DNA of 64,000 bases from Haliclystus octoradiatus (taxonomy: Eukaryota > Cnidaria > Staurozoa > Stauromedusae > Haliclystidae). Below the pieces are notes generated by a model. That model was not told the origin of the DNA, did no database searches, and was given only the letters and a program-made list of their open reading frames with translations. The stretch spans positions 6,865,345 to 6,929,344 of the forward strand of contig OU744451.1 of assembly GCA_916610825.1 (NCBI GenBank), read 5' to 3'. Of this stretch, positions 311 through 63,548 are shown piece by piece. Each line of letters starts with the position of its first letter. Within the stretch, counting starts at the first letter, position 1. Made by a program: the position numbers and the translations under genes.

Positions 311-3300
311 GTCTTGACCAAACTTACTCATCGACTACATCGATTGTCAACAACCAACTTTTATTGGCTGAAATCACTGCTGAAAGTGTTGTAAAAGATA
401 TCCAAGCGGAAGGATTGGAGCAGCATCGCAGCAGACGATCTTTGCCTGATGTTGGACGATGCAAATTTGGTGAATATTTGAGAGTATTTGCAGGCTGTGG
501 CTATGTGCTTTATCGAAACTTTAGACAAGGCGTTTCATTCTCATGCCCGTAAGATCACATATACATAATTATTCTCTATCTTAGTTGCCCAGTTCAAAAA
601 GATACGCTGGGTATCTCAAAACAGCCTGATCTGGGTTTCTATAAGCTGAATCATTGATATTCACTCCTTGTTGAATATATAATATAATGCATTAGATTCA
701 TTGCAGGCGAAATTATAATACTAATGTCATTATTTTAAAGTTCCAGATATTTCAAAATTTAATGTTTCCAACTTTTTCTATTGCTATAAGCATTGATGCA
801 AATAACAAACCTGCATGTACTGGCAACAGACTCTTTCTTTTCAAATTCAAAAACATTTTCTAGCATTTTCCAGTACCTATGATCGATATTGTTTTTATTG
901 CTGGCTGAAATTATAGTTGTGTCTTTCTCTTCCATCATAGAAATTGAATTGAATAGAAATTAACCTTATTACTTGTATCACACGAACATATGAAATGATA
1001 TATACGAATTTTCCTGAGAAAGAATGGCAAGAAGTTCACCCCAAAATGCTGAAATGGTATCTTTATTGTTTATCATTTGCCAATAACACCACCATAGAAA
1101 GGCGTTCTTTGACACTATTTCTTGATATCTGATATGTAAATTACTGGCAAAATGCTAGCAAAGGGGCCAAATGAAGAATTTTAACAACATTGAAAAGAAC
1201 AATAGAATACTGGCAAATTGCTTTATCATCTTCAAATTTACTACCAACATGAACGTAATTGGTGACCAAATGTTGACTTCATTTTGCCATGCCTTAAAAT
1301 CATCATATCTGGTCACATTCACATTTCTATAATCATTTTATTTTTAAAGGATGGTATCGTATTATTTATAGAACGTCTTTAATTCAACTGTAGTTATTTC
1401 TATCAGGAATTATCTGAAAACAAAAGGTTAAAGACATTGCTTGCCATTTTCTATAAATAAATAACGTACTATCATCTGAGCATAACATCAATAATTAACA
1501 TTGAAAAGCTGTGATGAAAAATAGAAGTAATTTGCAAATAAAATGTTTCAATAAATATGTACGCCAGTGGCTTCTTATCAAAAAGTTATATTCCATTTTA
1601 CTCTTTGATTTTATTTTCATTGTACTTGTGTTTAGGTGGCGATATAGATCAATATATCTTACCTGCGTTGGACAGGTTCTCAGAGGATGCCTTCGTTCTA
1701 CCATTACCAATTCATTAATGGAGAAAACAATACACAGGGCACAAGCTAAAGTCAACACTCAAGCTTTTATAAAGGTAAGGAAATATCAGCACACACAAAC
1801 ATCATAATCAATACTTCTCCATTTTTAAATCATATATTTTTGTTCCGTCTTGCATATTTTTTGATAGTCTTCGAAGTACTACGATAATGTTTTGTTTGTG
1901 ATGTTATAACATGCTTCTACAAGTTTATTTGTAGTCTATGCACAAGGGAAGTACTTTCCTACTAGTTGCTTGAGGCAGTGTCAATTTGAGAATCGTGCTC
2001 CTATTCTTAACTTGCATGTTTTGATGGGAATGATAACCTGAGTTTTAGTCTGAAATTGCCAAAAAGATCTTAATTACGACTTTTTGCATATATTTTGGAC
2101 AATTCAGGGCGTATACCAAATTCATAGCTGAAAGCCGGAATTTCTGCAACAGGGAGCAATAATTAAATATTTGTTATTCAAAATGCCAATTCACAATAGA
2201 GCTGGATAGAACTAATTGATCCATTTCAGCAGCAAAATACTTTCTTTCTTCCCCAGGAATCCTTGCTGTTTTATTAATCGTTTTGATGGGAAAAATGTTG
2301 AAATAAACCATATCAAATACGTTACTTCGAAAATAAAGTTGTTGTTTAATTGAAATAAATGAAAATTGATATGTCAACATAATTACAGCCTTGCGGGTCC
2401 ACAAAGGAAGAAACTTCTAATAAATCATTGGGTAAACACTTGCTAAATTATGGAACTACAATATTTTATTAAAAAATCTACCGCCGCGTTTTCTATAAAT
2501 ATAATGATTCATCCAAATCCTTGTTCTTATGTTTCACTCATAAACAGTATGTGTTGATCTTTAATGTTAGAATAAAAGAAAATTTCAAGCTTTGAATAAC
2601 CAAACAATTGAAACAAACAAAACAGATGCACGACTACAACGAATTTGAATTCACATATTGTCATTACGAGATATTCATATTGTCGATTTGAAAAAGAAAA
2701 TTTGAATTAATTATCTCCAGTTCTTTTCAATTAAAGCGTACTTAAATATATTTTCATTCTCATCGTCCACATCGACTTACTTTTTTGTGATGGATAATTT
2801 GGAGTCAAATCATGTTCAACAAAAATCTACTATATACTACAACGGTTAATTTTTTGTCTGAATCGCAAAGTAAACCCTTTCTCCAAATGTCAAATAAATT
2901 TGCTTCTACCTAATTTGCTGCTGGTTTTTGAATTATAGTTGCGACTTTTATTGTCTGATGTAGAAGGTTTCAATGTCTGCGGAAATAAATTGTTGAGTCG
3001 CTTATTGTTTTGTCGCTGTCAATGAATTATTCGGTCGCTAATCAATAATAAGTTGTCGCTTGATTTAACCATTTTGTCATTCTAAACTTAGTCGCGGTTT
3101 AGTAATCATTTAGTCGTGGTTTTGATTTTATCCCAATGCTAAAAGATCAATATAAGTAGTAGATCAAAGGTCACGAGTTTACTCCGCTACTCTGACATTC
3201 GCGTAAAGACACTCTTCAGACGGTTTATTGAATCGTATGACTATTTCTATAGAGAGATTACTTCATAGGTAGTGCTTTGTACACATTTTATCTACCTGTT

Positions 3301-6300: not shown

Positions 6301-9300
6301 TTTACGTGCGATAATATGATATTGATTACTGATTGCTTAAAATAAAAAAACAGACAAAAATTACAGCAACAAGAGAACAATGGGAAATCTCGCCGGGTAT
6401 AAGATAAATAAATATATAGTTGAAATTTTTGAGCGTTTCTTCATTGACTTTGTGTATTAATTTACGAGGGGCATTAAGCGCCTATTTTCCAATATTTTTT
6501 GCGTCTACTTAATACTTTGTATACAGGTGATCCTTAATCAGTTTATATGCATCTATATTGAAAAAGTTTTTTCTCCTCTTCAATTCCCAATGCAGGTATT
6601 TCTAGGTTATTGATATGCAAGAGAAAACAGTGTTAGTTGATTTTAATTTCATAAACATATAATTAATTGCAAAAGGGTCAATCAAGGAATGTGATTCGCC
6701 AAGCTAAGAATTAAATCGAGCGGAAATAACAATATGTAGTCAATGAAACGACTAAAGCGGTGAGTAAATTTCACCTTAAAGTACTATCCTATAGAGTGAC
6801 TCCCTTAACCGCTCATGTAGCAGCTGTGTGCCAATTTTCCCTGTGTGACGTCTTGAGTATAATTGGAATATTGTTTTTTTTATTGCATTTTCGATCCTGG
6901 TGTTGCTTTATGTTGATATAACTCAATCATCATCATGATCATCAAAATACGTAAAGTAACAATTACAGCATGATCTGTATCTAAGCATAGATTATAGAAT
7001 ACAGAGATTGAAAACTCTACTGTCCTCGTCCGCACGGTCAGATGATGTCGAATTTGCCGCAAAACGGAGTCACATGATCTTCACCCGACACAAGAATTAA
7101 ACCGAGAAGTCAAAACCTTGTAATCTTAGCAACTTGCGTACTATAATATCCTACGTTTCTCAAACAAATTGAAGTTTTATGTTTTGACAATGTTAAATAG
7201 AGCTTACTTTAAATGTTCATATCAATTTAATTGCGTTTAAACAAAATATCGAGTAGATGTGGCCAATTTAATTCACCATACTTTGCGGTATATTTCACCA
7301 AAATATTGCTTTGTTTACTTTCCCAATTTGCAAATTAATGTTTGTAACTTTTCAAAAGGACATGTATGTGATTGAATTATTCTACAAATATATTTATAAC
7401 TTACAAATCACAATCAAGCTGAAATGTTCACTGAAAAATAATTGCGCTTCTAAACGACAGGAATACAGTATACAGCTAGGCCTACGACATACAGTATAGC
7501 ACAAAACGCACTCAACAATTTTCATCACAAAACACATAATCCGGATTGTGTATGTATGACAGCAGAGGGAATACAATAAACACAATTAAACAAGCAATAC
7601 ACAGAGTAAACAAGATAAGGTGCAAATATCGATAACTGATTTGGTAAATTAAAACATTTTTTTAAAACATTCAGTGTTGGTACGTTTGACATTTCTAATA
7701 TTATTACTATATATATTTATAATTACGTTATGCTACACTTACATTTACAATGCATTTTACACAGCATCAAATTATGGATGTATACTTATTTTTCAAGTTA
7801 ATGAAGAATTGCTTGTACTTTAGAGTTTGAATTTTCTTTAAATTGTTCATTAGCAATTTATTTTTAAACTCCACTTTCTCTTTCAAGCTATAGGCAGTTT
7901 AGCAGTTAGGCCATGTCGTTCGTGTGCGAAAATTATCTCACTTTCACATATTAAATTTCAATACTGCACTTTGTAGGCAAATAAAAATAGTTTCATCAGT
8001 ATTGTTATCTTCTAAACCAAAGTGTTGTAGCCTACAGTTACATCCAAGGTAGATTAATTTTTTGGTTTTGCGAAACATTCAAGCGTGTCTATTTCATTCA
8101 AGAGTCCATCTGATCTCCTTATGAATAAATACAAAACTCTTCTTCACAGTTCCACAACAATAATAAATAAGATGCCCATCCATGCCATGACTTTCAGATA
8201 GATGTTCTAATTACTGACGAACAGATTTGTAGGGAATAGTTCAAATTGTTGAATATATCTGACACATATAATCTCCAGAAATGCCCGAGAAAATAATTTT
8301 ATTTGTAGAAGTCTAGTAACTTTTCAAGAGCAGATTCATTCGGCCGTGAACATTCTTCTTCATCGATGGACAATTTTATATCAGTATGTTTTTATTATGT
8401 TTGAAGGGTTAAACCCCCTTTACATTTACAAATCTTTCAACAATATTAGCACAACACAGGCACAGCGTAAACGTTTCTGTAACCCGCGCTCTTCTAAAAT
8501 TTCATTGATTGTGTTCGCCATTTTATATCGTCTTCTATGTTTAAGAAATTCAAGTACTAAAAAGTATTGCTATTAAATTGACCATCCATTTGAAAATAAT
8601 AAAATTATCAAGTGAGCTTTTACAAGCCAGCTTGAAGATATGAGCGATGATGAAATGAGTAGGACAGTCGACCGTGTTGTTGAAATGACACTTGTGAAAA
8701 TTTCTCACAAAATTCTGTGTCGGGTGGAGATCACGTGTTTCCGGAAAATCTCAAACAAAAACATATTTCATGCCCAGATCTCAGTTGCCAATTTCTGTTT
8801 TCTATAATCTATGATCTAAGTGAGCTGGTAGATTGGCAATTATTCAAGTCAAACAAACAAATATCATCAGCATCATAATGATTTATTATGAAACCTGATA
8901 AATTACAAGCTTTTTTCACTAGAAAGATTCATGGAATCCATCTCGTCATTATATACATCCAAGGTCATAGGTTATTATTATTTTTCTATGATTCTTTTAC
9001 GAGATATAACTGGAATAAAAGGTACTAATATTTGATTAATTATTTCCTTGTAGAGATTTTGCACTGATGGATCATTTGAGCGAACTGCTCCAGTGGCTCG
9101 CCAACGGTACTGCAAATTAGCACAATCGGAATATTCGACTTGTGTGCGATCGTTTCATAGGATGTTTGACAATAACCCTGGTAGCACTGTCCTTTGCCAG
9201 TAAGTACAACCTTTAGTATTTTATGCTATGGATAACCGGCGGTATATGAACACGAATAATGCAAGCGTAAATAATTCAAGCATTATTTACTCGTGGAATA

Positions 9301-15300: not shown

Positions 15301-16883
15301 ATATTGTTACTGAGTTGAACAAAATGAACAGTTTTCTGAGTAATATTTCTCCTATCTGAGTAAAGCGGCCGTAGAAAGAATTAATATTTTGATAACAAGT
15401 TAACAACATATTGTGTCTATAAAACAGTCACCGTTCAACAGAATGACCTTCTCGAGTTTCAAACTTTCTTCAAACTACGATATCAACGGCGGCGACACCT
15501 TTCACGGAAAAAATTTTTGATTGGCAGATTGACAGCAGACACTTGTAGATTTATCCTTTTTCACAGCGGAAGCCACGTTTTTTTATGCATCGTATTCAAC
15601 CCCATAGTTTTAAGGCAATGATAAGATTCAAACATTTAATTAATAAATCCAGATTATTCAGATCATTACCTCTACGGCCATATGAGCAAAATTTAGAATA
15701 TGTTTTCAAAAAGATGACGTATTTGCGTTTGAAAAATATCAGCGTTTTCCTCATTAACTTTACGTATTGATTTAGACGGGCCTTGGGACCCTATTTCCCA
15801 ATGTCAACTTACAATAAAATTTGTTCACAACTTATTTTCAAAGCATCCTGATCAAGAAAATCGATGGGCCCGATAACATTTCAAACTTTCATGTTTTTTG
15901 GACCAGTCTAATGTTTGTTTTGAACCATGAAAAACTGCCAAGGCGTCAAAAGGATACCTCAAAAAGAATTATCACTCAGCATACCCAAAAAATGTTTTTG
16001 AGAATTTTGAAAAAGGCACCCTTTAATATTTGAACCTCCTCGTATATCCAAAGTATGGAAGTTACCCCCAGGGACTATTATCTCATTCGAATTTATCGCT
16101 AATGATCCCAAATGATTTTTACACTGTTTAAGAAGTGATAAAAAACCTTATCAAAACCGCTTCAGAAATGGTCAAAAAGTAGCCTCCAAATCCGTTTCTC
16201 TTAGCAGCGGCATTTTGTCGAAGAACTTGCCTTCGCAGAATCAACGCCTTTTGTCTTTTTGGCATTTATCTAACTTTGCACCCCACTTGCTTACCCGCAA
16301 AGCATTATGCGATCACAATATATTCCTGAGAAAATAAACATTAGCGTTTTTCTAGCATCATAGGATAAACCGGTGACAAAACAATGTGTCAAAAACAACA
16401 TCAGAATTAGTTACAGCTGATTGAAAACATAATCAATTACCCGCAATTATATTTGCCTTCGAATACGAAAAGTCACAATTACATCGACCTTACGGGGAAA
16501 ACCTTCAAAACCCACCCTGGGAGCCATAACATGTCAATCAGGTATGAAGCTGAAGGTACTGAATATATACACTCTTTGCTAGTACTGGATATTTTTTATC
16601 TTGCAGATTGTATGATGATGCTCTCCGATGCGACATAAGAAATATGGAGCAGAATTGTAGAAGTTCATCAGCTATTACAGAGGCAAAAGCATTAATGAGA
16701 CTTGTTTCAAGAAAGGACGCTAATCCTTTTTGTAGCTTGAGCCAAGGGGGTTCCGATGTCGATGCAATCATGTTGGGTAATTGGAGTCCAGGAATTTCTG
16801 GATCGAATAAAATCACCTACCAAACTAGTATCGTCTCATTTGCACTATGCATGGCTTTGATTTTATCATGTTCCATAGTATAA
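311..16883 (+). CDS. Cysteine-rich GPI-anchored secreted protein, paralogue 1 (exons 2-5; exon 1 outside window)
   Basis: Four exons can be read: 311-548, 1636-1774, 9054-9199 and 16607-16883. Each has an AG acceptor, a GTAAG-type donor (GTAAGA, GTAAGG, GTAAGT) and matching phases (1, 2, 0, 2). Together they give one open frame ending at TAA 16881-16883. The signal-peptide exon seen in the second paralogue at 50792 has no counterpart here because the window starts too late. The product keeps the RSRR furin-like site, twelve ectodomain cysteines and a C-terminal hydrophobic tail after a small-residue stretch (ISGSN), as in GPI-anchored proteins. I recognise no named family. It differs from paralogue 2 at 15 amino acids, 11 of them within residues 63-100 (paralogue 2 numbering), including LRVFA against SGAIG between the first two cysteines. 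Exon 5 is identical in both. Intron 3 is 7.3 kb and full of transposons. Function is unknown; a surface recognition role is inference only. Confidence 0.8.
2196..3130. mobile_element. Truncated MITE with GCGAC(A)A subterminal repeats (copy 1)
   Basis: This is the right-hand part of the element seen more fully at 54098-55230. It carries several scattered GTCGC and TTGTCGC motifs (about 2990-3125), which are subterminal repeats. The left end and the upstream foldback sequence present in copy 2 are missing, with a clean join near 2195. There is no coding capacity, and it lies in intron 3 of paralogue 1. Confidence 0.5.
3496..5452. mobile_element. TA-flanked TIR DNA transposon, non-autonomous (pogo/Tc1-mariner-like)
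   Basis: The element starts CAGTGAAACCCCGTTAATAT and ends with the inverted ATTAACGGGGTTG, flanked on both sides by TA. Copy 2 gives the empty site: CCTACTA joins directly to CAATTATT near 55590, so this is a true insertion into copy 1 after the duplication, or a clean loss from copy 2. Subterminal GTGATATTAAGCGG motifs repeat at both ends (3540-3575, 5300-5440). A CAGT start with TA target duplication fits the pogo/Tigger or Tc1-mariner group. No transposase frame is visible. Inside it lies a second element at 3996-4944. Confidence 0.8.
3996..4944. mobile_element. Nested TTAA-flanked TIR element (piggyBac/Kolobok-type MITE)
   Basis: The inverted ends are AGGGTCAAAACAGACCGG on the left and its near-perfect complement CCGGTCTGGTTTGACCCT on the right. 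Both are flanked by TTAA (3992-3995 and 4945-4948), the target duplication used by piggyBac and Kolobok transposases. It sits wholly inside the TA-flanked element 3496-5452, so it inserted later. An unrecognised open stretch of about 55 codons lies near 4190-4360; no transposase motif was found. Confidence 0.7.
5453..9053. other. Rest of intron 3 of paralogue 1
   Basis: Apart from the recombinase relic this is AT-rich intron with no exon-like frame conserved between the two copies. A stretch near 6425-6500 (minus strand) is one copy of a dispersed repeat also found near 11160, 15710 and 45600. The short open frames near 8346-8576 change length between copies by single-base indels, so they are probably not coding. 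Confidence 0.5.
5779..6185 (-). pseudogene. Crypton/DUF3504-like tyrosine recombinase C-terminal fragment (copy 1, broken)
   Basis: On the minus strand the translation matches the better-preserved copy at 55912-56325. It keeps the box with His and Arg (NHSLRK), but the catalytic GH motif has become RH and a TAA replaces Gln just before it, near 6033. It is a dead relic in intron 3, antisense to the host gene. Confidence 0.6.
9200..10963. other. Intron 4 of paralogue 1, left part
   Basis: Non-coding. Up to 9947 it aligns with copy 2; from 9948 the sequence is present only in copy 1. The notable item is the perfect-arm palindrome at 10665-10722. No gene was seen. Confidence 0.5.
10665..10722. 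repeat. 58-bp palindrome (hairpin/cruciform)
   Basis: The outer arms CGTGCAGGTATAGGTCTA and TAGACCTATACCTGCACG are perfect 18-bp complements. Between them sits a second inverted repeat, CCGCAC/GTGCGG, around an AC spacer. The complementarity continues weakly outwards (CTAAAA...TTTTAG). It has no coding sense. It may be a very small foldback element or the remains of one. Confidence 0.85.
11987..12206. repeat. Minisatellite, about 22-bp unit, inside the Helitron
   Basis: About eight copies of a unit built on ACTTCACTTGCCTGCCACATT, some separated by AT-rich spacers such as AAGAACTTACATTACAACA. Tandem repeats of this kind are common inside Helitrons. A short plus-strand open frame here only reflects the repeat. 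Confidence 0.8.
13264..13599 (-). pseudogene. Captured gene fragment inside Helitron (C-terminal HECT-like/TE-linked domain?)
   Basis: A 111-codon minus-strand frame with the look of real protein: an acidic linker (SEPMDVDTSESEQ), then LLGWLTGTRHVP, FNHDC, HTICYPLVSAC and an H-x3-Y-x2-FKDIL stretch. I recall the order W-L-T-G, F-x-H-x-C, HTICYPxVSAC and H-x3-Y-x2-FK from the C-terminal regions of multi-domain, often HECT-associated proteins in fish and marine invertebrates. That link is from memory and unverified. The frame stops at a TGA where the family seems to continue, so it is a fragment. Its position inside a Helitron suggests gene-fragment capture. Confidence 0.4.
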
Positions 16884-16905
16884 ACATTGTTATCATTATA
16901 CTTAT

Positions 16906-18059: not shown

Positions 18060-19671
18060 TAATTAATAATCAGATGAGTCGTCCGTCAATCTCAGTTCAG
18101 GATCAAATAGAATCCGTGAAAGAAATATCTTTAATTTTGTGATTTGTATTGCATTAACTACAATGTTATATTTCTAAGGAGGTGTTTATAATAATCACAT
18201 ACTTTCCAATAATAATATGAATGCACACATGCTAATAAATGTAATTTCATAACCACTTCCTGCCTCCATGCCTTTGTATCCTCGCATTCCCAAGCGTTCT
18301 GAGATCCGGAGATAAGATTAAGATGCAAAATAACGGTCGCTCAAAAAACTTTTAGTCTAAAGGTATACACACATCGAGCTAAATCTCCTGAAGGGTCAAA
18401 TATCCCAGCTGCTGTGATATTATCTGGACAACTTTGAATATGATTAAGAGGCTATGTGGCTTGAAAGTGAGATTTGACACGAGAGGAATCGTATTCAATT
18501 GCTTCCGTAGAGAGTAGCTTATATAGTGAAACCCACTCCAGTATAGGGCAGAGCATATATTGTATCGTATTCAAGCGCCGTCAGGTATTCTACACGAATA
18601 CGACACGAAAGTCAGTACGCTACGCTGTCAATCCGGCACAGTGTAATTCCCACCTGAGGCCCTTAATACACGTGTCGATTTTTGTACAGTATAAAAAGTG
18701 TTATCGTCGTGGAATGCATACAATCTTCGTTGCTGTCAAACAGTAAGACACTACTCTACGATTGAACTACACCACGGTGGCATAAAGCGATAACGTAATC
18801 TTGCTTATATTCTCTCTTTAAGCTGAAATGTTTTAGAGTTTAGAGAATAAGCCCGAAAATAAGACATCGTTTTGCGAAATTCCATTTTGAAATATCAGCT
18901 CACTGAAATGGTATGACGTAGATCGACATATTATTAATAAACTCCATTTCGAACATCTTCATACAAATGATTACTATTTCAAAGGATGATACAAAATATG
19001 GCTATTCTTTCCAACAAAGATGATATCCATATATCAAACTATGAACTCATCAAAATGTCCAGCGTTTCTTTTCAAGAGGTGAATTCAGTCTGACATTGCT
19101 ATTTTCACAACAATACAGATTTTTCACAGGATCTCCAAATGAGTCCCAAGAGAATTATTCGAAGAAAAGATTGATTACCCGTGTGGTGTGTTCCCGGGGG
19201 TGTATTTTGAAAAGAACGTGACCTTGACCGTGACCCAGGGATGTATTGCTATACCACGTCAATATGGCAGATGTGAAAAAGCTCTAATCAAAAGTATAGA
19301 AAACGAAACAAACACTAACACATTTCAAAACTATTCTAAGCAACAAATTAAATTATGAAGCAGCACAAACGTTTGCACTTCATTATGTTAATTTGAGATT
19401 TATCGAGGCAGATTTATCGAGGCAGATATGTCGAATTATAGAATTCAAATATACAAATATCATCGATCAAAAATATATGCTTAAATCGATTGTGTGGCCG
19501 ATATTGATATCATTTAAGCATATCCAGGTCTATAACTAAATACTTTTATTATTAATCAGTAAGCACATAAATGTATGCAGGTTTATAAGATGGAGCACAA
19601 TAAAATTGAGGTAATGCACAGTTTCAATGTAATCATATTAGGTTGGTAGGGGATTTTATTCGACCCAGATG
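18060..19671. other. Downstream flank of paralogue 1
   Basis: Matches 61558-63160 closely. It contains a candidate poly(A) signal AATAAA at 18234-18239. An open frame of 90 codons (18474-18746) is kept in copy 2, but it has no splice structure or motif I trust. An exon-like patch near 19131-19358 (counterpart at 62631-62846) has a 4-bp indel between copies. No confident gene. Confidence 0.4.
18234..18239 (+). promoter_or_regulatory. Candidate poly(A) signal AATAAA, paralogue 1
   Basis: A canonical AATAAA present in both copies (18234 and 61733). In copy 2 it lies about 196 bp after the stop codon, a plausible 3' UTR length. In copy 1 a transposon separates it from the stop codon. Confidence 0.35.
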
Positions 19672-19776
19672 TTGGTTGACGCCTTGTAGGTGTAATAGAT
19701 TTTGATTGACACTTTGTAGGTGTAATAGATGATGATTGACGCCTTGTAGTTGTAATAGATGTTGGTTGACGCTTTG
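19660..19776. repeat. 30-bp minisatellite, about 4 units (copy 1)
   Basis: Unit GTTGACGCCTTGTAGGTGTAATAGAT plus four variable bases. Copy 2 has about 13 units at 63152-63545. The duplication homology ends inside this array, so the array may have been the recombination breakpoint. Confidence 0.9.
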
Positions 19777-36489: not shown

Positions 36490-36691
36490 TTAGTGTTGTT
36501 TCAATTTTCTTATAAATAGCATCTCATGCATAGAGCAATCTGCTTTGTTTTTACAGTGCTGTAAAACACTGAACCCTTTAGAGCAGTCGCAAGATTTGAG
36601 GTTGTGTTGTTTAAGAAGGTGCTGTCCAATTGCCTGTGTTTGATGTTCAAGAATGCATTTTTGAAGGGACAGCAAGTAAACCGAGATAGTC

Positions 36692-36700
<9 letters not shown>
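36490..36700 (-). pseudogene. Penelope-like element GIY-YIG C-terminal fragment
   Basis: The minus-strand peptide contains HLLKQHNLK, FSVLQHCKNKADC and HEMLFIRKLK. This matches the pattern F-x-VL-x-x-C-x-x-K-x-DC-x-x-x-EMLFI(R/K) that I recall from the end of Penelope-like GIY-YIG endonuclease domains. It stops where that family would continue (TAA after KLKQH). Its upstream side runs straight into the ATT microsatellite, so the rest is missing. Confidence 0.5.
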
Positions 36701-37665
<965 letters not shown>

Positions 37666-39844: not shown

Positions 39845-41311
39845 TTATATAAATTTGAATTCCAAGGTAGAGCTTTCGCAAGCTTGATAAGTACAAATTT
39901 CTGGACCTGTTCCTGCTTCTATAATATGAACACACATGTTATTTTGTTCCTTCATGTTGAGGAAGAAGTTTGCTTGATGTGTTATCAGACTGAATCCATC
40001 GCTGCATGACAACGAAAGAGTGAAATAAGAATTGGTTGCATATGAGTTTGCTTTCACACACTTATCTGTCCCACTCAAATAAAACCTTCCATTTTCATAG
40101 GTATAGCTCTCATCACACTCATCCTGAGCTTCCATTCTTGTTGTATGATAATTGTATGTAAAACATCGATTTCCCCAGTTAGAGGATGATTGTAATGACC
40201 CTAGAAAAATGATAAATGGGAAGATGATGATTAGTAGCTCCATACAAAATGACGTTACTATTTATCACTGTAATATAAACTGGGTTAGTATGGCACATTT
40301 GTAGAGAATCAGATGACATAAACGTGTTTTAAATGTGTTGGATGTTTTTTTCGTTTTGTTGATATCGAATTTATTCAGAAACAGGATCATTTAAAGTCTT
40401 TTTTCCTCCTTGGGGTGGTTGGCTATTATTTCAAATTCTGTGTACATTTTACGACGGATAATCTTACTAATGGCAATCATTATTTTTCTTATATACGGAT
40501 TGTCAATAAAATACTGTAGGTTAAAACTAAATCCCAATCACTACACCAAGGATGCGCTAGCTTAACGGTGACGTATCGTTTACTTCGACAATAACGATAT
40601 CAACAACATATATAGGGAGGATTATTGTTTATCATTGTTGCTAACACCGATGTTTGAATATTATTATTAGTAAAGTTCTCTATATATAGCAGCTCTATTG
40701 GAGGAAATATCGTATTTTTAAAACGCTACACACAACTTAGTTCATGTTCTTACAAAAAAAATATCCTATGATCAATTCATGAGAAGGCATATAACAGTTT
40801 GGGGAGTGTTTTCATTTTAGCCTGTTTCGGAAAGACGGGAACTCAATGTATGAAATTTCTAGAATAGAAATTGAGTTGATCCGGTGAAATGATTCTAACA
40901 AAGACAATTGTTATCAATGCAAATGTTTGTAAGCAATTAGCATTATCTTCACAGTCTAGAAATTCCGCTTCTGATTATAGATGGAATGTCTGGACTGTGG
41001 AAACGATTCAAACAATTTCTAGCTGAACTCAAATTAAAGAAGTAAGTAGTCATGGTCGCTTTTACATTCTATGCAGTTTTAGCCTTCCCGAATGCTAACA
41101 TGCAGGATATACTTTGGTAAATATTATATACATTTCTTACCACATGGATTCGGCGATGTGCAAGTAAATACATCTGTCTGAATTCCATCACAATCTGGTG
41201 ATGAAATGGGAGCACAATATCTTTTCCTTGTTGGTTTGCGATATTTCAAACATTCGTATGGTGTTCGTGCCTCACAATTATCCGAACACGGTTTCCAGGT
41301 TGTCCAGATCA
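39845..41311 (-). CDS. Thrombospondin type 1 domain protein, last two exons (5' part not found)
   Basis: The exon at 41311-41141 (171 bp, phase 1-1) encodes a TSP1-type repeat. It has paired tryptophans in WTTWKPC, six cysteines in the usual order, a basic stretch RKRYC and a C-terminal NPCG. The acceptor is TTTTCTTAG and the donor GTAAGA. The exon at 40200-39845 continues in the same phase (G|GG) and ends with a stop. It holds eight cysteines, with CFTYNY, DKCVKA, LSCS and NNMCVH motifs, perhaps a divergent lectin-like module; I cannot name it. Upstream exons are not visible, and a Ty3/gypsy element lies 112 bp beyond the TSP1 exon. An alternative is that the last exon is a separate gene, because an ATG at 40243 opens a signal-peptide-like sequence (MELLIIIFPFIIFLGS) that overlaps the polypyrimidine tract. 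Probably extracellular. Confidence 0.65.
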
Positions 41312-44600: not shown

Positions 44601-44714
44601 ACAGGATTTGTTGAATGCGGGACAACGCCTTGGTGGATGTATAGAGGCACAGAATTTACATTTGTTACTCACGTCATTTTTGTGTAACTGGACTCCTCTT
44701 TGCATCTTTGACAT
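41627..44714 (-). pseudogene. pol: pol region of the Ty3/gypsy element (zinc knuckles, PR, RT, RNase H, IN)
   Basis: The longest open part (44714-43524, 396 codons) has Cys-rich knuckles (CKFC..H..CPAFNKSCSNC), the aspartic protease motif LHDTGAS, and reverse transcriptase with YQDD near its end. Around 43200-43520 the frame is lost. RNase H follows (LTADASGSCFAGVL, 43195-43004), interrupted by TAG where Trp is expected, then TDHKAL. The integrase zinc-finger region (42680-42500) has two stops, and the integrase core (42457-41627) keeps the acidic residues in MDFG, VSDNAREF and CLAEISV. Family: Ty3/gypsy, similar to invertebrate K02A2.6-type polyproteins. Non-functional as it stands. Confidence 0.85.
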
Positions 44715-44719
44715 AGTTG

Positions 44720-45239
44720 ACCGGTGGTAGAACAGAATTTGATGCTTTCTTGACGTTTATAAAATCATCGGATCATATTCCATAGATCATAAAATCATAT
44801 TCCCTCACTCTTTCTCTCGGATCTTCAAATTGTGCTTTCGGTGTATTCCTGATGAAATCCAAGAGCTCTTTCTTTATCTTCGGATCTTCAAAGCAGTTAA
44901 TAAATACCAGCTTTTTTTAGTTCAGATCCAGGGTCTTTCTGCTCTTTTAAGTTTGAAAAATCACATCTGTCTGCCATGTAAGTAATGCGACCATATACAT
45001 CTTCGACTGAATCCTCTGCTCCCTTCTTTATCGCTAAAAAGTTAGTACTCTCAGCAACCAGAAACCTCTCTTTCGGCTCAAGATATAATTTGGCTGCATT
45101 GTGAATGTCATTGAATGGCATTTCTTCTAAAGCATCGGGTTTACCAATCTCGTCAGCGTGATAAATGCCGATTAAAAGCCGAAAACCATGCATTGGCTTT
45201 TTCTGGATCATCTAAAGTTAATCTTCTTTTATTGTCCAT
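44720..45239 (-). pseudogene. gag: gag region of the Ty3/gypsy element
   Basis: An ATG at 45239 opens MDNKRRLTLDDPEKANAW, typical of the start of a gypsy-type Gag. It hits a stop after about 28 codons, and the capsid-like sequence continues in another frame (YLEPKERFLVAEST, EDVYGRITYMADRCDF). A second shift leads into the frame carrying the zinc knuckles. It is broken by at least one frameshift. Confidence 0.7.
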
Positions 45240-45289
45240 AGCGAGATTCTAAGCTGTAGTTAAAGTAATTTTGCTCGCAGCACCAATTT

Positions 45290-45455: not shown

Positions 45456-45460
45456 ATAAG

Positions 45461-50791: not shown

Positions 50792-53700
50792 ATGGAATCC
50801 TTCTCTGTACTGATCGTTATTACTGTATTGCTTTTAGGTGAGTTTTTGTTGGTACTGTTGTTGTTACAATTATATATTTCAATGCCATAGAGCAGTTGTT
50901 TTTTGCTCAGCAACTTATAAGACTGGGACGTTTATCGTGAATAAACGGGTCAGAAATGTAACTTTAAAGTTCCCCTGGGAAATTGCATATGGAAATAGTA
51001 ATGATGAAAAATGTTTATCTATAATCACAATGTTTGTTGTTGCTGTAATTCTACTTTCAAACCATAGAACAAATTGAAGGCATGATTATGGCTCATATAT
51101 ATGCTTCATATTTAGTTGGTGTTTAAATAGTCTCCAGAGCAAAACATCACTATAATCTGTTTTTCCTTAGCTTTATGTTAAATCTGTCATTTGTTAATTG
51201 CTCTGTAGCATTTTTTTTGCTCTACACATAGTTTATACAGTATCACATAAATATACCAAGCAAACTCTAATGTCAATCATCATTTTACACCAATAACATC
51301 CTGCATTTAAACATGCAAGTAAGTCAATGGTGTATAACGCGCTGCATTTATCATCCAATCGGCACTAAATTTTTTCAAACATAATTAAAAGTTAGCTATC
51401 TAAATTTAAAAAGAAAAACAATATCCTGGTATGTTTATTAAGTAATGTCTACGAGTAATAAACTATACTGACGGAATCATGGATATTTCAATGATTGTTA
51501 AACCCGTCATTTGTTAGTGTTTAATATTTCCTTTATAATTCATGCCCCTGAACTCTGATTTTATTCAGTTTCTGATATTTCTGATTAGGTCTTGACCAAA
51601 CTTACTCATCGACTACATCGATTGTCAACAACCAACTTTTATTGGCTGAAATCACTGCTGAAAGTGTTGTAAAAGATATCCAAGCGGAAGGATTGGAGCA
51701 GCATCGCAGCAGACGATCTTTGCCTGATATTGGACGATGCAAATTTGGTGAATATTCGGGAGCAATTGGAGGCTGTGGCTATGTGCTTTATCGAAAATTT
51801 AGACAAGGCGTTTCATTCTCATGCCCGTAAGATCACATATACATAATTATTCTCTATCTTAGTTGTCCAGTTCAAAAAGATACGCTGTATCTCAAAACAG
51901 CCTGATCTGGGATTCTATAAGTTGAATCATTGATATTCACTCCTTGTTGAATATATATAAAAATGCATTAGATTCATTGCAGGCAAAATTATAATACTAA
52001 TGTCATTATTTTAAAGTTCCAGATGTTTCAAAATTTAACGTTTCCAACTTTTTCTATTGCTATAAGCATTGATGCAAATAACAAACCTGCATGTACTGGC
52101 AACAGACTCTTTCTTTTCAAATTCAAAAACATTTTCTAGCATTTTCCAGTACCTATGATCGATATTGTTTTTATTGCTGGCTGAAATTATAGTTGTGTCT
52201 TTCTCTTCCATCATAGAAATTGAATTGAATAGAAATTAAACTTATTACTTGTATCACACGACTATATGAAATAATAAATACGAATTTTCCTGAGAAAGAA
52301 TGGCAAGAATTTCACCCCAAACTGCTGAAATGGTATCTTTATTGTTTATCATTTGCCAATAACACCACCATGGAAAGGCGTTCTTTGACACTATTTCTTG
52401 ATATCTGATATGTAAATTGCTGGCAAAATGCTAGCAAAGGGGCCAAATGAATAATTTTAACAACATTGAAAAGAACAATAGAATACTGGCAAATTGCTTT
52501 ATCATCTTCAAATTTACTACCAACATGAACTTAATTGGTGACCAAATGTTGACTTCATTTTGCCATGCCTTAAAATCATCATATCTGGTCACATTCACAT
52601 TTCTATAATCATTTTATTTTTAAAGGATGGTATCGTCTTATTTATAGAACGTATTTAATTCAACTGTAGTTATTTCTATCAGGAATTATCTGAAAACAAA
52701 AGGTTAAAGACATTGCTTGCCATTTTCTATAAATAAATAACGTACTATCATCTGAGCATAACATCAAAAATTAACATTGAAAAGCTGTGATGAAAAATAG
52801 AAGTATTTTGCAAATAAAATGTTTCAATAAATATGTACGCCAGTGGCTTCTTATCAAAAAGTTATATTCCATTTTACTCTTTGATTTTATTTTCATTGTA
52901 CTTGTGTTTAGGCGGCAATATAGTACAATCTATCTTACCTGCGTTGGACAGGTTCTCAGAGGATGCCTTCGTTCTACCATTACCAACTCATTATTGGAGA
53001 AAACAATATACAGGGCACAAGCTAAAGTCAACACTCAAGCTTTTATAAAGGTAAGAAAATATCTGCACACACAAACATCATAATCAATATTTCTCCATAT
53101 TTAAATCATATAATTTTGTTCCGTCTTGCATATTGTTTTGATAGTCTTCGAAGTACTACGATAATGTTTTGTTTGTGATGTTATAACATGCTTCTACAAG
53201 TTTATTTGTAGTATATGCCCAAGGGAAGTACTTTGCTACTAGTTGCTTGAGGCAGTGCCAATTTGAGAATCGTGCTCCTATCGTTAACTTGCATGTTTTG
53301 ATGGGAATGATAGCCTGAATTTTAGTCTGAAATTGCCAAAAAGATCTTAATTACGACTTTTTGTATATATTTTGGAAACTTCAGGGCGTATACCAAATTC
53401 ATAGCTAAAAGCTGGAATTTCTGCAACAGGGAGCAAGAATTGAATATTTGTTATTCAAAATGCCAATTCACCAACAATTCACATGGTTTTCTCCAATCAA
53501 AGCAAGGCTGTATAAGCTTTGAAGTTGAATTTCATTCTAAGAAATAACAATCTCGGAAATATTACTGTGGCATTCAAAAGTATATTGGATGAGAACCTAT
53601 ATTGAAGATTCGTACTTCAAAGTGATGCATTTGAATGTATGGATTAAACTGTGATTGTGGAAGATTATCCAAGTGTGTGGTTTTCTATAAAGCTCAAATT

Positions 53701-56700
53701 CGATGTGAGATGGAAAGGTGTTGACAGATTTTTTTTTAATTTGAAGCATTTTATGCTTATATTTCCCAACAAAAATGTCCAAGAAACCCCTGTCCATATT
53801 GGTTTCTTATTTCATAGAGTTTTCAACAATTGTCCGACCAATCATAGAAAATGAAAATCTGTCAACACCTTCACACACTTCTATAATCTGTCAAAATCAC
53901 AGTGGAAGCCATACATTCAAATGCATCACTTTGAAGTTCAATTTTAGTATAGGTTGTCATTCAATAGACTTTTGAATGGAACAGTAATATTTCTGAGATT
54001 GTTACCTTTACTGAGATTTATGAATGATATTATTAAATTTATATAATTTATATATATATATAAATAAAGTGATTGTGTTGGCAAAACATCAATTTGGATT
54101 TAACGCCGCGACAAAAGGGTTACTTTCCGCGACAAATTAGCTTCTTTCAGCATCTAATTGACTAATTTCCGCAGCAAATTGATAGTAAACGCGACTTTAT
54201 TTTCAGCGAACAAATGGTCTAACCATTAGCAGCTAATCAATTAAATTAGCAAACAAATTATTCAGCGACAATTTATTGTATTTCCCGCAGCAAATAAAGA
54301 GCTGGATGGAGCTAATTGATCCATTTCAGCAGCAAAATACTTTCTTTCTTCCCCGGGAATCCTTGCTGTTTTATTAATCGTTTTGATGGGAAAAATGTTG
54401 AAATAAACCATATCAAATACGTTACTTCGAAAATAAAGTTGTTGTTTAATTGAAATAAATGAAAATTGATATGTCAACATAATTACAGCCTTGCGGGTCC
54501 ACAAAGGAAGAAACTTCTAATAAATCATTGGGTAAACAGTTGCTAAATTATGGAACTACAATAGTTTATTAGAAAATCTAATGCCGCGTTTTCTATAAAT
54601 ATAATGATTCATCCAAATCCTTGTTCTTATGTTTCACTCATAAACAGTATGTGTTGATCTTCAATGTTAGAATAAAAGAAAATTTCAAGCTTTGAATAAC
54701 CAAACAATTGAAACAAACAAAACAGATGCACGACTACAACGAATTTGAATTCACATATTGTCGTTACGAGATATTCATATTGTCGATTTGAAAAAGAAAT
54801 TTGATTTAATTTTCTCCAGTTCTTTTCAATTACAGCGTACTTAAATATATTTTCATTCTCATCGTCCCCATCGACTTACTTTTTTGTGATGGATAATCTG
54901 GAGTCAAATCATGTTCAACAAAAATCTACTATATACTACAACGGTTAATTTTTTGTCTGAATCGCAAAGTAAACCCTTTCTCCAAATGTCAAATAAATTT
55001 GCTGCTACCTAATTTGCTGCTGGTTATTGAATTATAATTGCGACTTTTATTGTCTGCTGTAGAAGGTTTCAATGTCTGCGGAAATAAATTGTTTATTCGC
55101 TTATTGTTTTGTCGCTGTCAATGAATTATTCGGTCGCTAATCAATAATAAGTTGTCACTTGATTTAACCATTTTGTCATTCTAAACTTAGTCGCGGTTTA
55201 GTAATCATTTAATCGCGGTTTTAATTGTATCCCAATACTAAAAGATCAATATAAGTAGTAGATCAAAGGTCACGAGTTTACTCCGCTACTCTGAATTTCG
55301 CGTAAAGACACTCTTCAGACGGTTTATTGAATCGTATGACTATTTCTATAGGGAGATTACTTCATGGGTAGTGCTTTGTACACATTTTATTTACTCGTTG
55401 TTTGTATCAGAAAACTCATGAATAAAATCCGTACCCATGATCAGTAATCTTTATGTAAAATCTAGCGAGAAATCAACATCAACGACTATTGTTATTATTG
55501 TGATCGAAAAAAGGGATTTTTTATTATGCTTGGATGAGGTATGCTTCTTATTTTGTTTTATTATTGATGTGGGTTTATTCAGATTCCTACTACAATTATT
55601 ATTTTATTCAATTTCATGAATAGTGTTGCATAAATTAATAACAAAACAAAATTCAGTTTTACAAATGTTTATCAAAATTATTAACCCCACTCATTTAAAA
55701 GACAAATGTTAACAAAAAAGCTAAGAGAAATGTTTAACAATAAAACCGAACAAAACATTTTTTTTAAATGAAACAACTAACTAAGAACTTTGTATAACTA
55801 AAAACGCAATTAAACTTCTCTGATATTGTTCAGTCTGTGTAAGAATGCATCTTCTTCGTTTTCTATTCTTTTTCAATTCTACTTTTGGTAAGTGATTCAA
55901 TGTATTATGATTTACAGTACAGTTATATTGAATTCACCACCGTGGATTGAAGCTCCTTCGAATAAATTTGGTGGGATTTCCCTTCGTGTGATAGTTGATG
56001 TGCTTGTTGTTGTTTTACGCGCTTGAGTCTCAATTATATGGGGTACATTTTCATCGTGTTCAGCAGAAGGACCACTCAAGATATTTGACATTCTTTTCTG
56101 TCGGTTGATGTTTATATTGCTATAATTGTTGACATTCTGCACATTTCGATGTCCACTGATTTGCATTGTATGAGACGGAGGTATTTCCTTATCGTTCAGC
56201 GTTTGCATCATGTGCTTTCTAGCGCTATGATTTACAGGTCTCTCATTGTCAATATTTGCTTTTTCAGCCATGGTTTGCATCAATGAATAAAGTCTATTGA
56301 CTCCCGTAAGAGTTACCTAGTTGAGCCATTTTTCATCACTATCTATTTCTCGTAGATGATTTATTTCCATATAAAAAGCTGATTTCGGGGTGAAGTACAT
56401 GATACAAACAATATGATTGGTTGTATCGTTTTCTTTAAGTGCGAGAAATTGATATTGATTACTGATTGCTTAAAATAAAAAAACAGACAAAAATTACAGC
56501 AACAAGAGAATGATGGGAAATCTCGCCGGGTATAAGATAAATAGATATATAGTTGAAATTTTTGAGCGTTTCTTCATTGACTTTGTGTATTAATTTACGA
56601 GGGGCATTAAGCGCCCATTTTCCAATATTTTTTGCGTCTACTTAATACTTTGTATACAGGGGATCCTTAATCAGTTTATATGCATCTATATTGAAAAAGT

Positions 56701-59700
56701 TTTTTCTCTTCTTCAATTCCCAATGCAGGTATTTCTAGGTTATTGATATGCAAGAGAGCACAGTGTTAGTTGATTTTAATGTCATAAACATATAATTGAT
56801 TGCAAAAGGGTCAATCAAGGAATGTGATTCGCTAAGCTAAGAGGTAATCGAGCGCAAATAACAATAGGTAGTCAATGAAACGACTAGAGCGCGAGTAAAT
56901 TTCACCTTCAAGTACTATCCTGTAAAGTGACTCCCTTAACCGCTCATGTAGCAGCTGTGTGCCAATTTTCCCTGTCTGACGTCTTGAGTATAATTGTAAA
57001 ATTGTTTTTTTTTATTGCATTTTCGATCCTGGTGTTGCTTTATGTTGATATAATTCAATCATCATCATGATCATCAAAATACGTAAAGTAACAATTACAG
57101 CATGATCTGTATCTAAGCATAGATTATAGAATACAGAGATTGAAAACTCTATACTGTCCTCGGCCGCGCGGTCAGATGATGTCGAATTTGCCGCAAAGCG
57201 GAGTCACATCATCTTCACCTGACACAAGATTTAAACCGAGAAGTCGAAACCTTGTAATCTTAGCAACTTGCGTACTATAATATCCTACGTTTCTCAAAAA
57301 AATTGAAGTTTTATGTTTTGACAATGTTAAATAGAGCTTACATTAAATGTTCATATCAATTTAATTGCGTTTAAACAAAATATCGAGTAGATGTGGCCAA
57401 TTTAATTCACCATACTTTGCGGTATATTTCACCACAGTCTTGCTTTGTTTACTTTCCCAATTTGCAAATTAATGTTTGTAACTTTTCAAAAGGAAATGTA
57501 TGTGATTGAATTATTCTACAAATATATTTATAATTTACAAATCACAATCAAGCTGAAATGATCACTGAAAAATAATTGCACTTCTAAATGACAGGAATAC
57601 AGTATACAGCTAGGCCTACGACATACAGTATAGCACAAAACGCACTCAACCATTTTAATCACAAAACACATAATCCGGATTGTGTATGTATGACAGCAGA
57701 GGGAATACAATAAACACAATTAAACAAGCAATACACAGAGTAAACAAGATAAGGTGCAAATATCGATAACTGATTTGGTAAATTAAAACACTTTTGTAAA
57801 ACATTCAGTGTCGGTACGTTTGACATTTCTAATATTATTACTATATATATTTATAATTACGTTATGCTACACTTACATTTACAATGCATTTTACACAACA
57901 TCAAATTATGGATGTATACTTATTTTTCAAGTTAATGAAGAATTGCTTGTACTTTAGAGTTTGAATTTTCTTTAAATTGTTCATTAGCAATATATTTTTA
58001 AACTCCACTTCTCTTTCAAGCTATAAGCAGTTTAGCGGTTAGGCCATGTCGTTCGTGTGCGAAAATTATCTCACTTTCACATATTAAATTGCAATACTGC
58101 ACTTTGTAGACAAATAAAAATAGTTTCATCAGCATTTTTATCTTCTAAACCAAAGTGTTGTAGCCTACTGTTACATCCAAGGTAGATTAATTTTTTGGTT
58201 TTGCGAAACATTCAAGCGTGGCTATTTCATTCAAGAGTCCATCTGATCTCCTTATGAATAAATACAAAACTCTTCTTCACAGTTCCACAACAATAATAAA
58301 TAAGGTGCCCATCCATGCCATGACTTTCAGATAGATGTTCTCATTACTGACGAACAGATTTGTAGGGAATAGTTCAAATTGTTAAACATATCTGACACAT
58401 ATAATCTCCAGAAATGCCCGAGAAAATAATTTTATTTGTAGAAGTCTAGTAACTTTTCAAGAGCAGATTCATTCGGCCGTGAACATTCTTCTTCATCGAT
58501 GGACAATTTTATATCAGTATGTTTTTATTATGTTTGAAGGGTTAAACCCCCTTTACATTTACAAATCTATCAACAATATTAGCACAACACAGGCACAGCG
58601 TAAACGTTTCTGTAACCCGCGCTCTTCTAAACTTTCATTGATTGTGTTCGCCATTTTTATATCGTCTTCTATGTTTAAGAAATTCAAGTACTAAAAAGTA
58701 TTGCTATTAAATTGACCATCCCTTTGAAAATAATAAAATTATCAAGTGAGCTTTTACAAGCCATCTTGAAGATATGAGCGATGATGAAATGAGTAGGACA
58801 GTCGACCGCGTTGTTGAAATGACACTTGTGAAAATTTCTCACAAAATTCTGTGTCGGGTGGAGATAACGTGTTTCCGGAAAATCTCAAACAAAAACATAT
58901 TTCGTGCCCAGATCTCAGTTGCCAATTTCTGTTTTCTATAATCTATGATCTAAGTGAGCTGGTAGATTGGCAATTATTCAAGTCAAACAAACAAAGATCA
59001 TCAGCATCATAATGATTTATTATGAAACCTGATAAATTACAAGCTTTTTTCACTAGAAAGATTCATGGAATCAATCTCGTCATTATATACATCCAAGGTC
59101 ATAGGTTATTACTATTCTTCTATGATTCTTTTACGAGATATAACTGGAATAAAATGTACTAATATTTGACTAATTATTTCCTTGTAGAGATTTTGCACTG
59201 ATGGATCATTTGAGCGAACTGCTCCAGTGGCTCGCCAACGGTACTGCAAATTAGCACAATCGGAATATTCGACTTGTGTGCGATCGTTTCATAGGATGTT
59301 TGATAAAAACCCTGGTAGCACTGCCCTTTGCCAGTAAGTACAACCTTTAGTATTTTATGCTATGGATAAACGGCGGTATATGAACACGAATAATGCAAGC
59401 GTAAATAATTCAAGCATTATTTACTCGTGGAATACCACGTGATGGAATATGCGTGGATTTCGCCTAACAGCGCACAGCAAATACGCTGGATGCATTTAAT
59501 TGGTTTAAATGCCAAATTATGACTTGGTTAGCCTCAACTATGCAGACAATGTCAATATTTACAAATTAATTATGTTTAAGAAATTTGTATAAGTCCTCAG
59601 ATTAAAGTCTAAATCTATATCTCGCTAAGCGGGTAAAAATAATGAATAGTTAAATTTTTAATAGTTGTAGTTAAATATAATGAATAGTAAATGTGTATGA

Positions 59701-61537
59701 AGCGTTTAACAGAAGAATAACAATGAACAATTGTTTAGAAAGTAGCATAGTAAACGGCCATGCCTTTTACATTTAAAAAGAAATTTTAATTTTATTCATA
59801 AACGCATCCAAGCAAAAATGATCGATTCTGATTGGCCAAGAGCAGTGCAGTTTCGAGGAGATCAAATGCTATTTTTTGAAATTGCACTCAGTGTAAAATC
59901 AAAAATCAAAATATGATTGGTTGATAGAATAATCGAACAAAATATTAACAAACGAAAACAGAGTAGAGAAATCGAAAAATGTGAACCATGGTAACGCAAA
60001 ATTAGAACATGGTCCTTTGAAGTGATATTTATTTTTGATGACGTGTTCTGTTCTTTCTCTATTTTTTGCAAACGTTTTTTCCATGACCTCGAGAATGACC
60101 TTCTCGAGTTTCAAACTTTCTTCAAACTACGATATCAACGGCGGCGACACCTTTCACGGAAATATTTTTTGATTGGCAGATTGACAGCAGACACTTGTAG
60201 ATTAATCCTTTTTCACAGCGGAAGCCACGTTTTTTTATGCATCATATTCAGCCCCATAGTTTTAAGGCAATGATAAGATTCAAACATTTAATTAATAAAT
60301 CCAGATTATTCAGATCATTACCTCTACGGCCATATGAGCAAAATTTAGAATATGTTTTCAGAAAGATGACGTATTTGCGTTTGAAAAATATCAGCGTTTT
60401 CCTCATTAACTTACGTATTGATTTAGACGGGCCTTGGGACCCTATTTCCCAATGTCAACTTACAATAAAATTTGTTCACAACTTATTTTCAAAGCATCCT
60501 GAACAAGAAAATCGATGGGCCCGATAACATTTCAAACTTTCATGTTTTTTGGACCAGTCTAATGTTTGTTTTGAACCATGAAAAACTGCCAAGGCGTCAA
60601 AAGGATACCTCAAAAAGAATTATCACTCAGCATACCCAAAAAATGTTTTTGAGAATTTTGAAAAAGGCACCCTTTAATATTTGAACCTCCCCGTATATCC
60701 AAAGTATGGAAGTTACCCCCCAGGGACTATTATCTCATTCGAATTTATCGCTAATGATCCCAAATGATTTTTACACTGCTTAAGAAGTGATAAAAAACCT
60801 TATCAAAACCGCTTCAGAAATGGTCAAAAAGTAGCCTCCAAATCCGTTTCTCTTAGCAGCGGCATTTTGTCGAAGAACTTGCCTTCGCAGAATCAACGCC
60901 TTTTGTCTTTTTGGCATTTATCTAACTTTGCACCCCACTTGCTTACCCGCAAAGCATTATGCGATCACAATATATTCCTGAGAAAATAAACATTAGCGTT
61001 TTTCTAGCATCATAGGATAAACCGGTGACAAAACAATGTGTCAAAAACAACATCAGAATTAGTTACAGCTGACGGAAAACATAATCAATTACCCGCAATT
61101 ATGTTTGCCTTCGAATACGAATAGTCACAATTACATCGACCTTACGGGGAAAACCTTCAAAACCCACCCTGTGAGCCATAACATGTCAATCAGGTATGAA
61201 ACTGAAGGTACTGAATATATATACACTCTTTGCTAGTACTGGAGATTTTTTATCTTGCAGATTGTATGATGATGCTCTCCGATGCGACATAAGAAATATG
61301 GAGCAGAATTGTAGAAGTTCATCAGCTATTACAGAGGCAAAAGCATTAATGAGACTTGTTTCAAGAAAGGACGCTAATCCTTTTTGTAGCTTGAGCCAAG
61401 GGGGTTCCGATGTCGATGCAATCATGTTGGGTAATTGGAGTCCAGGAATTTCTGGATCGAATAAAATCACCTACCAAACTAGTATCGTCTCATTTGCACT
61501 ATGCATGGCTTTGATTTTATCATGTTCCATAGTATAA
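50792..61537 (+). CDS. Cysteine-rich GPI-anchored secreted protein, paralogue 2 (complete, 5 exons, 281 aa)
   Basis: Exons: 50792-50837, 51589-51826, 52912-53050, 59188-59333 and 61261-61537. All introns are GT-AG and phases match (1, 2, 0, 2). Exon 1 is a signal peptide (MESFSVLIVITVLLLG). Then come a propeptide-like stretch ending in a furin-type site RSRR|S (residues 55-58) and an ectodomain with twelve cysteines (66, 78, 94, 105, 113, 144, 161, 171, 189, 198, 207, 232). One N-glycosylation sequon lies at Asn248. The C-terminal tail (ISGSNKI.. then a hydrophobic end to residue 281) is of GPI-anchor type. Exons 4-5 look helical. No known family recognised; the C-x6-9-C/C-x8-9-C pattern could be a lineage-specific receptor or ligand. 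Likely at the outer cell surface. It differs from paralogue 1 mainly at residues 63-100. A TATAAG lies about 65 bp upstream of the ATG, and AATAAA about 196 bp after the stop. Confidence 0.85.
53535..54025. mobile_element. Foldback element in intron 3 of paralogue 2
   Basis: The left arm from ACAATCTCGGAAATATTACT (53547) through GTGATGCATTTGAATGTATGG pairs with the right arm ending ATTTCTGAGATTGTTACC. Pairing continues inward through CTGTGATT, AAGTGTGTG and AAGGTGTTGACAGATTTT, giving about 200 bp of imperfect arms around a short loop. Absent from copy 1. Confidence 0.7.
54098..55230. mobile_element. MITE with CCGCGAC subterminal repeats (fuller copy)
   Basis: The left end TTAACGCCGCGACAAAAGGG TTACTTTCCGCGAC aligns with the inverted right end TTAAAACCGCGATTAAATGA TTACTAAACCGCGAC. 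Inside both ends are further CGACAA and GCAGCAAAT motifs. Copy 1 keeps only the part from 2196 on. No coding capacity. Confidence 0.55.
55912..56325 (-). pseudogene. Crypton/DUF3504-like tyrosine recombinase C-terminal fragment (copy 2)
   Basis: A minus-strand open frame of 123 codons from the ATG (about 135 with upstream in-frame sequence). It carries the C-terminal catalytic block of a tyrosine recombinase: NHSARK (His-x-x-Arg), QISGHRN (Gly-His) and NNYSNIN (candidate nucleophile Tyr). These match the pattern of Crypton-derived, KIAA1958-type proteins. The N-terminal half, including the first catalytic Arg, is missing, so it is a fragment. It is antisense within intron 3. The same fragment in copy 1 has a stop and a lost glycine, so it predates the duplication. 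Confidence 0.65.
60085..60093. other. Deletion junction with filler in copy 2
   Basis: Copy 2 joins the equivalents of copy 1 positions 9947 and 15441 with the 9-bp insert GACCTCGAG. Just downstream is AATGACCTTCTCGAG, so the filler looks templated from the flank. About 5.49 kb is missing, including the left arm, the Helitron and the loop. Confidence 0.7.
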
Positions 61538-63545: not shown

Positions 63546-63548
63546 TAT

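Follow-up and report, generated by a model that had tools for sequence, protein, structure and literature searches.

What kind of surface protein is encoded by the duplicated genes in the 64,000 nucleotides of Haliclystus octoradiatus chromosome 6 analysed here (the window, to whose positions the coordinates below refer), and does it belong to any known family? The preliminary description had seen two five-exon genes with consistent splice phases in the window, and rebuilding the models from the genomic sequence reproduced both, here called genes A and B, each with five exons, a 281-residue product, no internal stops, AG/GT borders and consistent phases at all junctions. Gene B lies entirely within the window (50792-61537, plus strand), whereas gene A is whole only when the sequence to its left is added, since its exon 1 is located outside, at -531..-486. 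In gene B, exon 1 (50792..50837) carries the start codon and the putative signal peptide, ends in phase 1 and has a similar counterpart in the C4:23.19 Mb paralog; exon 2 (51589..51826) encodes the propeptide, the R-x-x-R site and cysteines 1-3, with the furin-type site RSRR (residues 55-58) placed by hand count at 51705..51716; exon 3 (52912..53050) encodes cysteines 4-5, exon 4 (59188..59333) cysteines 6-9, and exon 5 (61261..61537) cysteines 10-12, including the ANPFC motif, as well as the GPI-type tail and the stop. Exons 2 to 5 of gene A occupy 311..548, 1636..1774, 9054..9199 and 16607..16883 on the same strand, with RSRR at 427..438. The twelve cysteines first ascribed to these products hold for the ectodomain, but each full precursor has 14, two of them in the tail.

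Both genes are members of a family of about 17 loci, genes and gene remnants together, in the H. octoradiatus genome, nine of which fall within 0.80-1.20 Mb of chromosome 6. The suspected clustering is borne out, and the family is larger than the first reading could reveal. Far-diverged paralogs share the intron phases, the cysteines, the R-x-x-R site and the hydrophobic tail. The twelve cysteines stand in register in all seven genes for which exons 2-5 were found (A, B, G1, G2, G4, G5 and, judged by eye, G11), and R-x-x-R lies between signal peptide and domain in 12 of the 12 members with exon 2 found. Exon-wise comparison of the diverged copies gave dN/dS values of 0.20-0.71 in eight cases out of ten, the remaining two having saturated dS, which argues that purifying selection is acting between them. 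Because phases, cysteines, R-x-x-R and tail recur in diverged paralogs, together with these dN/dS values, we take the family genes to be real, beyond chance. In the C4:23.19 Mb paralog, exon 3 breaks frame (by eye).

The furin-type site and GPI-type tail proposed for the two genes likewise recur across the family. Assignment of signal peptides and GPI tails was made by eye and hydropathy; a hydrophobic exon 1 was seen in three genes (A, B and the paralog at C4:23.19 Mb), and the C-terminus is hydrophobic, with at most one charge in its last 12 residues, in all 11 tails examined. The tail of G11 is, by eye, of the same kind. This combination of signal peptide and hydrophobic tail with no cytoplasmic part is the one expected of a GPI-anchored protein.

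What had been described as a tandem duplication is indeed a duplication, but of another form, namely a pair of segmental copies, one spanning roughly -3.4 to 30.3 kb and the other 45.8 to 68.9 kb, which are 86-99% identical in pieces longer than 250 bases and lie in 104 kb of gap-free sequence. The third, inverted relative reported at the edge is present on the minus strand (63071..63742, a last exon with 30-base TSITPTRRQ-type repeats), yet it is broken: its exon 5 loses frame directly after ANPF, at the twelfth cysteine, and its exon 4, just beyond the window end, hits stops. This copy, C, is a pseudogene. A shorter remnant of the inverted last exon is found in the left duplicate (19589..19744, minus strand), and an exon 5 profile detected what is left of a further exon for a GPI-type tail, directly behind gene B on its 3' side (61596..61667, plus strand; E 0.0069), and its twin behind gene A (18097-18168; E 0.0069). 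A scan of the window with Rfam gave no match.

Given the neighbouring pseudogene and a dN/dS of 1.28 between A and B, the two could be duplicates in decay, or one of them a second haplotype that the assembly failed to merge, instead of two working genes. We consider this improbable, as frames and all junctions are intact in both genes, the 104 kb contain no gap, and the A and B blocks carry different insertions and deletions. The ratio of 1.28 is compatible with relaxed constraint. Positive (diversifying) selection on the pair was considered but found no support: 16 of the 20 differences are non-synonymous, which does not depart from neutrality (p 0.80). The differences are skewed towards exons 1-3 (17 versus 3, p 0.003), the other three all being in exon 4 and none in exon 5. 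This skew partly tracks the lower divergence of the exon 5 stretch, where A/B identity is 98.6% over the whole stretch including the intron versus about 97% elsewhere, and local recombination may therefore explain the excess in exons 1-3. A separate observation, for which the recombination reading does not account, is that a 13-base stretch of exon 2 holds five A/B changes (p 0.001, stretch chosen post hoc).

As to kinship, the view that the protein fits no known family is right for the protein of the window taken by itself, which had no Pfam match and no PDB sequence match at E up to 10, but not for its paralogs, some of which weakly match DUF19 (Pfam PF01579), the T20D4.11-like domain of nematodes. 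Three of eight exon 4-5 halves matched this profile (E 0.0018, 0.0014 and 0.0047), as did the consensus exon 4-5 half (E 0.0067), and all matches share one register, from profile positions 80-83 to 143-151. The top score of 18.9 bits lies below the curated cut-off of 23.2 bits; one cysteine-preserving shuffle reached E 0.0077 against a different family, so single matches of such size arise by chance. Gene B matched DUF19 neither as a whole protein nor with its exon 4-5 half, and the full-length G11 protein did not match it either. Searching the H. octoradiatus genome with the DUF19 profile returned 0 matches, a result that is uninformative because 14 control genomes also returned 0.

These results can be read in two ways. 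The family might be real and GPI-anchored yet have no kinship with DUF19, having arisen independently in cnidarians (perhaps in staurozoans), with convergence on cysteine-rich helical sequence behind its weak DUF19 scores; the unmatched window protein, a 9-member profile that found nothing in the PDB, scores that are all under the cut-off, and the lack of a DUF19 match for five of the eight halves and for the full-length consensus would all agree with such an origin. We regard it as plausible but somewhat doubtful, since DUF19 is reached in one register by three diverged paralogs as well as by the consensus half, but by none of nine shuffles that keep the cysteines in place. From these profile comparisons, the best, if tentative, reading of the exon 4-5 half is as a very distant DUF19 relative, and the family looks like very distant cousins of the secreted DUF19 proteins of worms and not like something wholly new.

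DUF19 is characterised by twelve conserved cysteines. In C. elegans, the excerpt of PMC3534327 gives 51 DUF19 genes, 42 of them with a signal peptide and 14 induced by infection, while that of PMC8410859 counts more than 80 paralogs, describes one 11-gene cluster and reports no knockdown phenotype; an excerpt of PMC3527274 terms the domain Cys-rich. DUF19 proteins, mostly secreted and in C. elegans expanded and partly clustered, resemble the jellyfish family in these respects, and the in-register profile match, weak and confined to three paralogs, adds to this likeness. The jellyfish match is, however, limited to the second half, stays under the curated cut-off and leaves gene B unmatched. The jellyfish proteins, in which these features were looked for, have a conserved R-x-x-R and a GPI-type tail.

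The AlphaFold model is all-helical (pLDDT 71 overall, 75-93 per block for model residues 91-170) and has no convincing neighbour in the PDB. A likeness to repulsive guidance molecule (RGM) found no support: the structural Z was at background level, and Pfam scans reaching to E 10 showed no RGM family, whether for the N- or the C-terminal domain; that the protein is an RGM-like co-receptor, GPI-anchored and furin-cut, with a three-helix disulfide domain binding TGF-beta-type ligands, seems very unlikely to us. DUF1397 (PF07165), the insect 27 kDa hemolymph glycoprotein, was hit by one of nine members at a non-significant E of 0.12. An internal repeat relating exons 2-3 to exons 4-5, hinted at by MAFFT placing exon 2 pieces on exon 4, gained no support when hhalign compared exons 2 and 4, the one pair aligned in this way (probability 0.1%). 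Ly6/uPAR-type proteins occur in gene clusters and carry GPI anchors. The jellyfish protein resembles them in way of life only, as small, cysteine-rich surface proteins of a duplicated family (so described for the Ly6/uPAR type in an excerpt of PMC4839075), whereas their three-finger domain differs from its all-helical model.

On balance we favour, as the probable explanation, that A and B are young duplicates within the family of about 17 loci whose products are furin-processed, GPI-tethered and disulfide-rich, with a distantly DUF19-related exon 4-5 half. Judging from sequence and family-wide conservation, the product would enter the secretory pathway via its signal peptide, a furin-type protease would cut after the conserved R-x-x-R and remove a propeptide of about 40 residues, the remainder would form a compact all-helical domain with six disulfides, and a GPI anchor would tether it to the outer cell surface. 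Its likely role there would be that of a binding module for a ligand, a neighbouring cell or a microbe, multiplied by local duplication; the recognition role suggested earlier (gamete, allorecognition or immune) may be one such function.

Should the DUF19 link fail, there would still be a clustered stalked jellyfish surface-protein family, of which our literature search gave no description among the matches listed. A bolder and rather unlikely proposal is that DUF19, worm-specific according to one paper, is an animal module predating the cnidarian-bilaterian split, the cnidarian form being a membrane-tethered, furin-activated, clustered surface sensor or recognition receptor and the nematode proteins shed derivatives of this ancient cell-surface receptor. 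DUF19 is still named as a domain of unknown function, and if the link is true, the cnidarian family would offer a second system for domains of this type, in which the conserved tethering and processing signals, together with the cluster, hint at cell-surface tethering as a clue to their role.

A script that followed the splice sites reproduced the two five-exon genes with consistent phases of the preliminary description, each with 281 codons, exons of 46, 238, 139, 146 and 277 bases and intron phases 1, 2, 0 and 2. Between genes A and B, 20 of 846 bases and 16 residues differ. They reside in a pair of segmental duplicates, one from about -3.4 to 30.3 kb and the other from about 45.8 to 68.9 kb (negative coordinates lying left of the window), which bears out the proposed tandem duplication. 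Gene B is wholly within the window; gene A is incomplete there, its first exon lying to the left. The duplicates are 86-99% identical in pieces longer than 250 bases and carry unlike internal insertions, and the 104 kb examined contain no assembly gap. Five of the A/B differences fall within 13 bases of exon 2 (coding positions 215-227; SGAIG in B, LRVFA in A), a cluster with p 0.001 that was selected after looking. Remnants of a GPI-type tail exon lie 3' of each gene, at 18097-18168 (+) and 61596-61667 (+), with a third copy at 18709989-18710051 on contig C4, and represent either the end of a gene in decay or a terminal exon that is spare.

Several other elements share the window. LTR-retroelement-like coding stretches lie at 41627-42535 (-), with an integrase core, and at 43524-44756 (-), with an aspartyl protease and a reverse transcriptase, and a tyrosine recombinase fragment in gene B intron 3, within the duplicated block (55912-56316 (-); Pfam Phage_integrase, E 2e-6), is probably a mobile-element remnant. 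The frames at 32888-33283 and 35522-35854 (-) gave hits to a SWIM zinc finger, below threshold (E 0.0039), and to ALS2CR8 (E 1.9e-8); at a guess they are of transposase origin. In addition, there is a very long simple repeat of about 1.1 kb (36587-37744; copy spacing 9 and 12 bases, GC down to 18%) and a 138-residue open frame at 39845-40261 (-) that begins much like a signal peptide and contains several cysteines; its sole match is weak, transthyretin-like and below the cut-off (E 0.0057).

Exon-wise searches of the genome (33 contigs, 261,861,806 bases), with exon profiles then applied to fetched loci, place the family at about 17 loci. Nine lie at 0.797-1.199 Mb of the contig that carries the window (26,960,693 bases; chromosome 6 is given as 26.96 Mb in PMC9975415), three at the window itself (A, B and the broken inverted relative C), four on C4 at 18.70, 18.71, 23.19 and 25.56 Mb, and one, weak, on C2 at 22.67 Mb (best E 0.007). 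These counts are lower bounds because the best candidates alone were scored; sequence was read at a subset of the loci. They also assume that three groups of exons each form one locus: exon 2 (0.8988 Mb) and exons 4-5 (0.9126-0.9135 Mb); exon 4 (0.8875 Mb) and exon 5 (0.8952 Mb); and, on C4, exon 2 (25.565 Mb) and exon 4 (25.553 Mb).

The family genes are real, as seen from their exon and junction models, cysteines, R-x-x-R site, hydrophobic C-termini and dN/dS. Exon 3 was sought by requiring an acceptor in phase 2, a donor in phase 0 and two cysteines. This returned exactly one candidate in each of five members (G1-G5), recovered the exon expected for the minus-strand C4 copy, and gave no candidate in the remaining five intervals tried (G6-G10); the other junctions were read separately. 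Per-exon identity to gene B is just 11-43% among cluster members, yet the twelve cysteines stay in register in all seven genes with exons 2-5 found (one of them, G11, judged by eye). All 12 members with an exon 2 carry R-x-x-R ahead of the first cysteine, a count possibly biased by ascertainment since part of the profile spanned that stretch, and each of 11 C-termini is hydrophobic, its last 12 residues holding no more than one charge. Of ten exon-wise comparisons of diverged copies (Nei-Gojobori), not all of them independent, eight gave a dN/dS of 0.20-0.71, and in the other two dS was saturated. Two observations count against the genes: the ratio of 1.28 between A and B (16 non-synonymous and 4 synonymous changes) is indistinguishable from neutrality, and the copy at C4:23.19 Mb has, by eye, a frame-breaking change in exon 3.

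The third, inverted relative described at the edge, C (63071-63742 (-)), is indeed a family copy, but a pseudogene: exon 5 is out of frame past ANPF and back in frame at the repeats, and exon 4, beyond the window end, runs into stops. Its likeness is to the copy on the minus strand at C4:18.711 Mb: in both, repeats of the TSITTTRRQ kind separate the domain from the tail. A shorter remnant lies at 19589-19744.

The earlier statement that the proteins belong to no known family holds for the gene B product, for which neither Pfam nor the PDB sequences gave a match at E up to 10, but less so for its paralogs, some of which weakly match Pfam DUF19 (PF01579). Two among nine members did so (E 0.0066 and 0.0098), as did three of eight halves encoded by exons 4-5 (E 0.0018, 0.0014 and 0.0047), aligned to profile positions 80-83 to 143-151; the other five halves, gene B's included, gave no DUF19 match. 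The consensus half matched in the same register (E 0.0067), and none of nine cysteine-preserving shuffles matched DUF19, one of them matching a different family at E 0.0077. Neither the full-length consensus nor full-length G11 matched DUF19, and every DUF19 score fell below the 23.2-bit cut-off. Judged from these comparisons, a relationship to DUF19 seems slightly more probable than its absence, and we regard it as a lead, not as membership.

C. elegans is credited with 51 DUF19 genes, 42 with a signal peptide and 14 infection-induced (PMC3534327), and elsewhere with more than 80 paralogs and a cluster of 11 genes on chromosome V; the latter study reports no knockdown phenotype, and shorter adults with growth retardation in one T20D4.11 overexpressing line (PMC8410859). 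A table entry reads "Worm-specific Cys-rich secreted protein, DUF19" (PMC3527274), a label that an oyster protein annotated as DUF19 domain-containing argues against (PMC10058639). No cnidarian appeared in the titles or abstract openings of the 15 DUF19 papers listed, and the family was absent from titles and abstract openings among the matches listed on the Haliclystus genome and allorecognition (best 15 of 933) and on GPI-anchored gene families in Medusozoa or Staurozoa (best 15 of 249; best 8 of 2,598).

A signal peptide is present in three genes, and R-x-x-R, the twelve cysteines and the GPI-type tail are kept family-wide. From these features, furin would cleave the precursor at R-x-x-R, the cysteines would pair as six disulfides, and GPI attachment would be followed by display at the surface; more tentatively, binding of a ligand or partner might have been the cause of duplication. 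Candidate roles of the family may lie in recognition, defence, stress signalling or the nematocyte.
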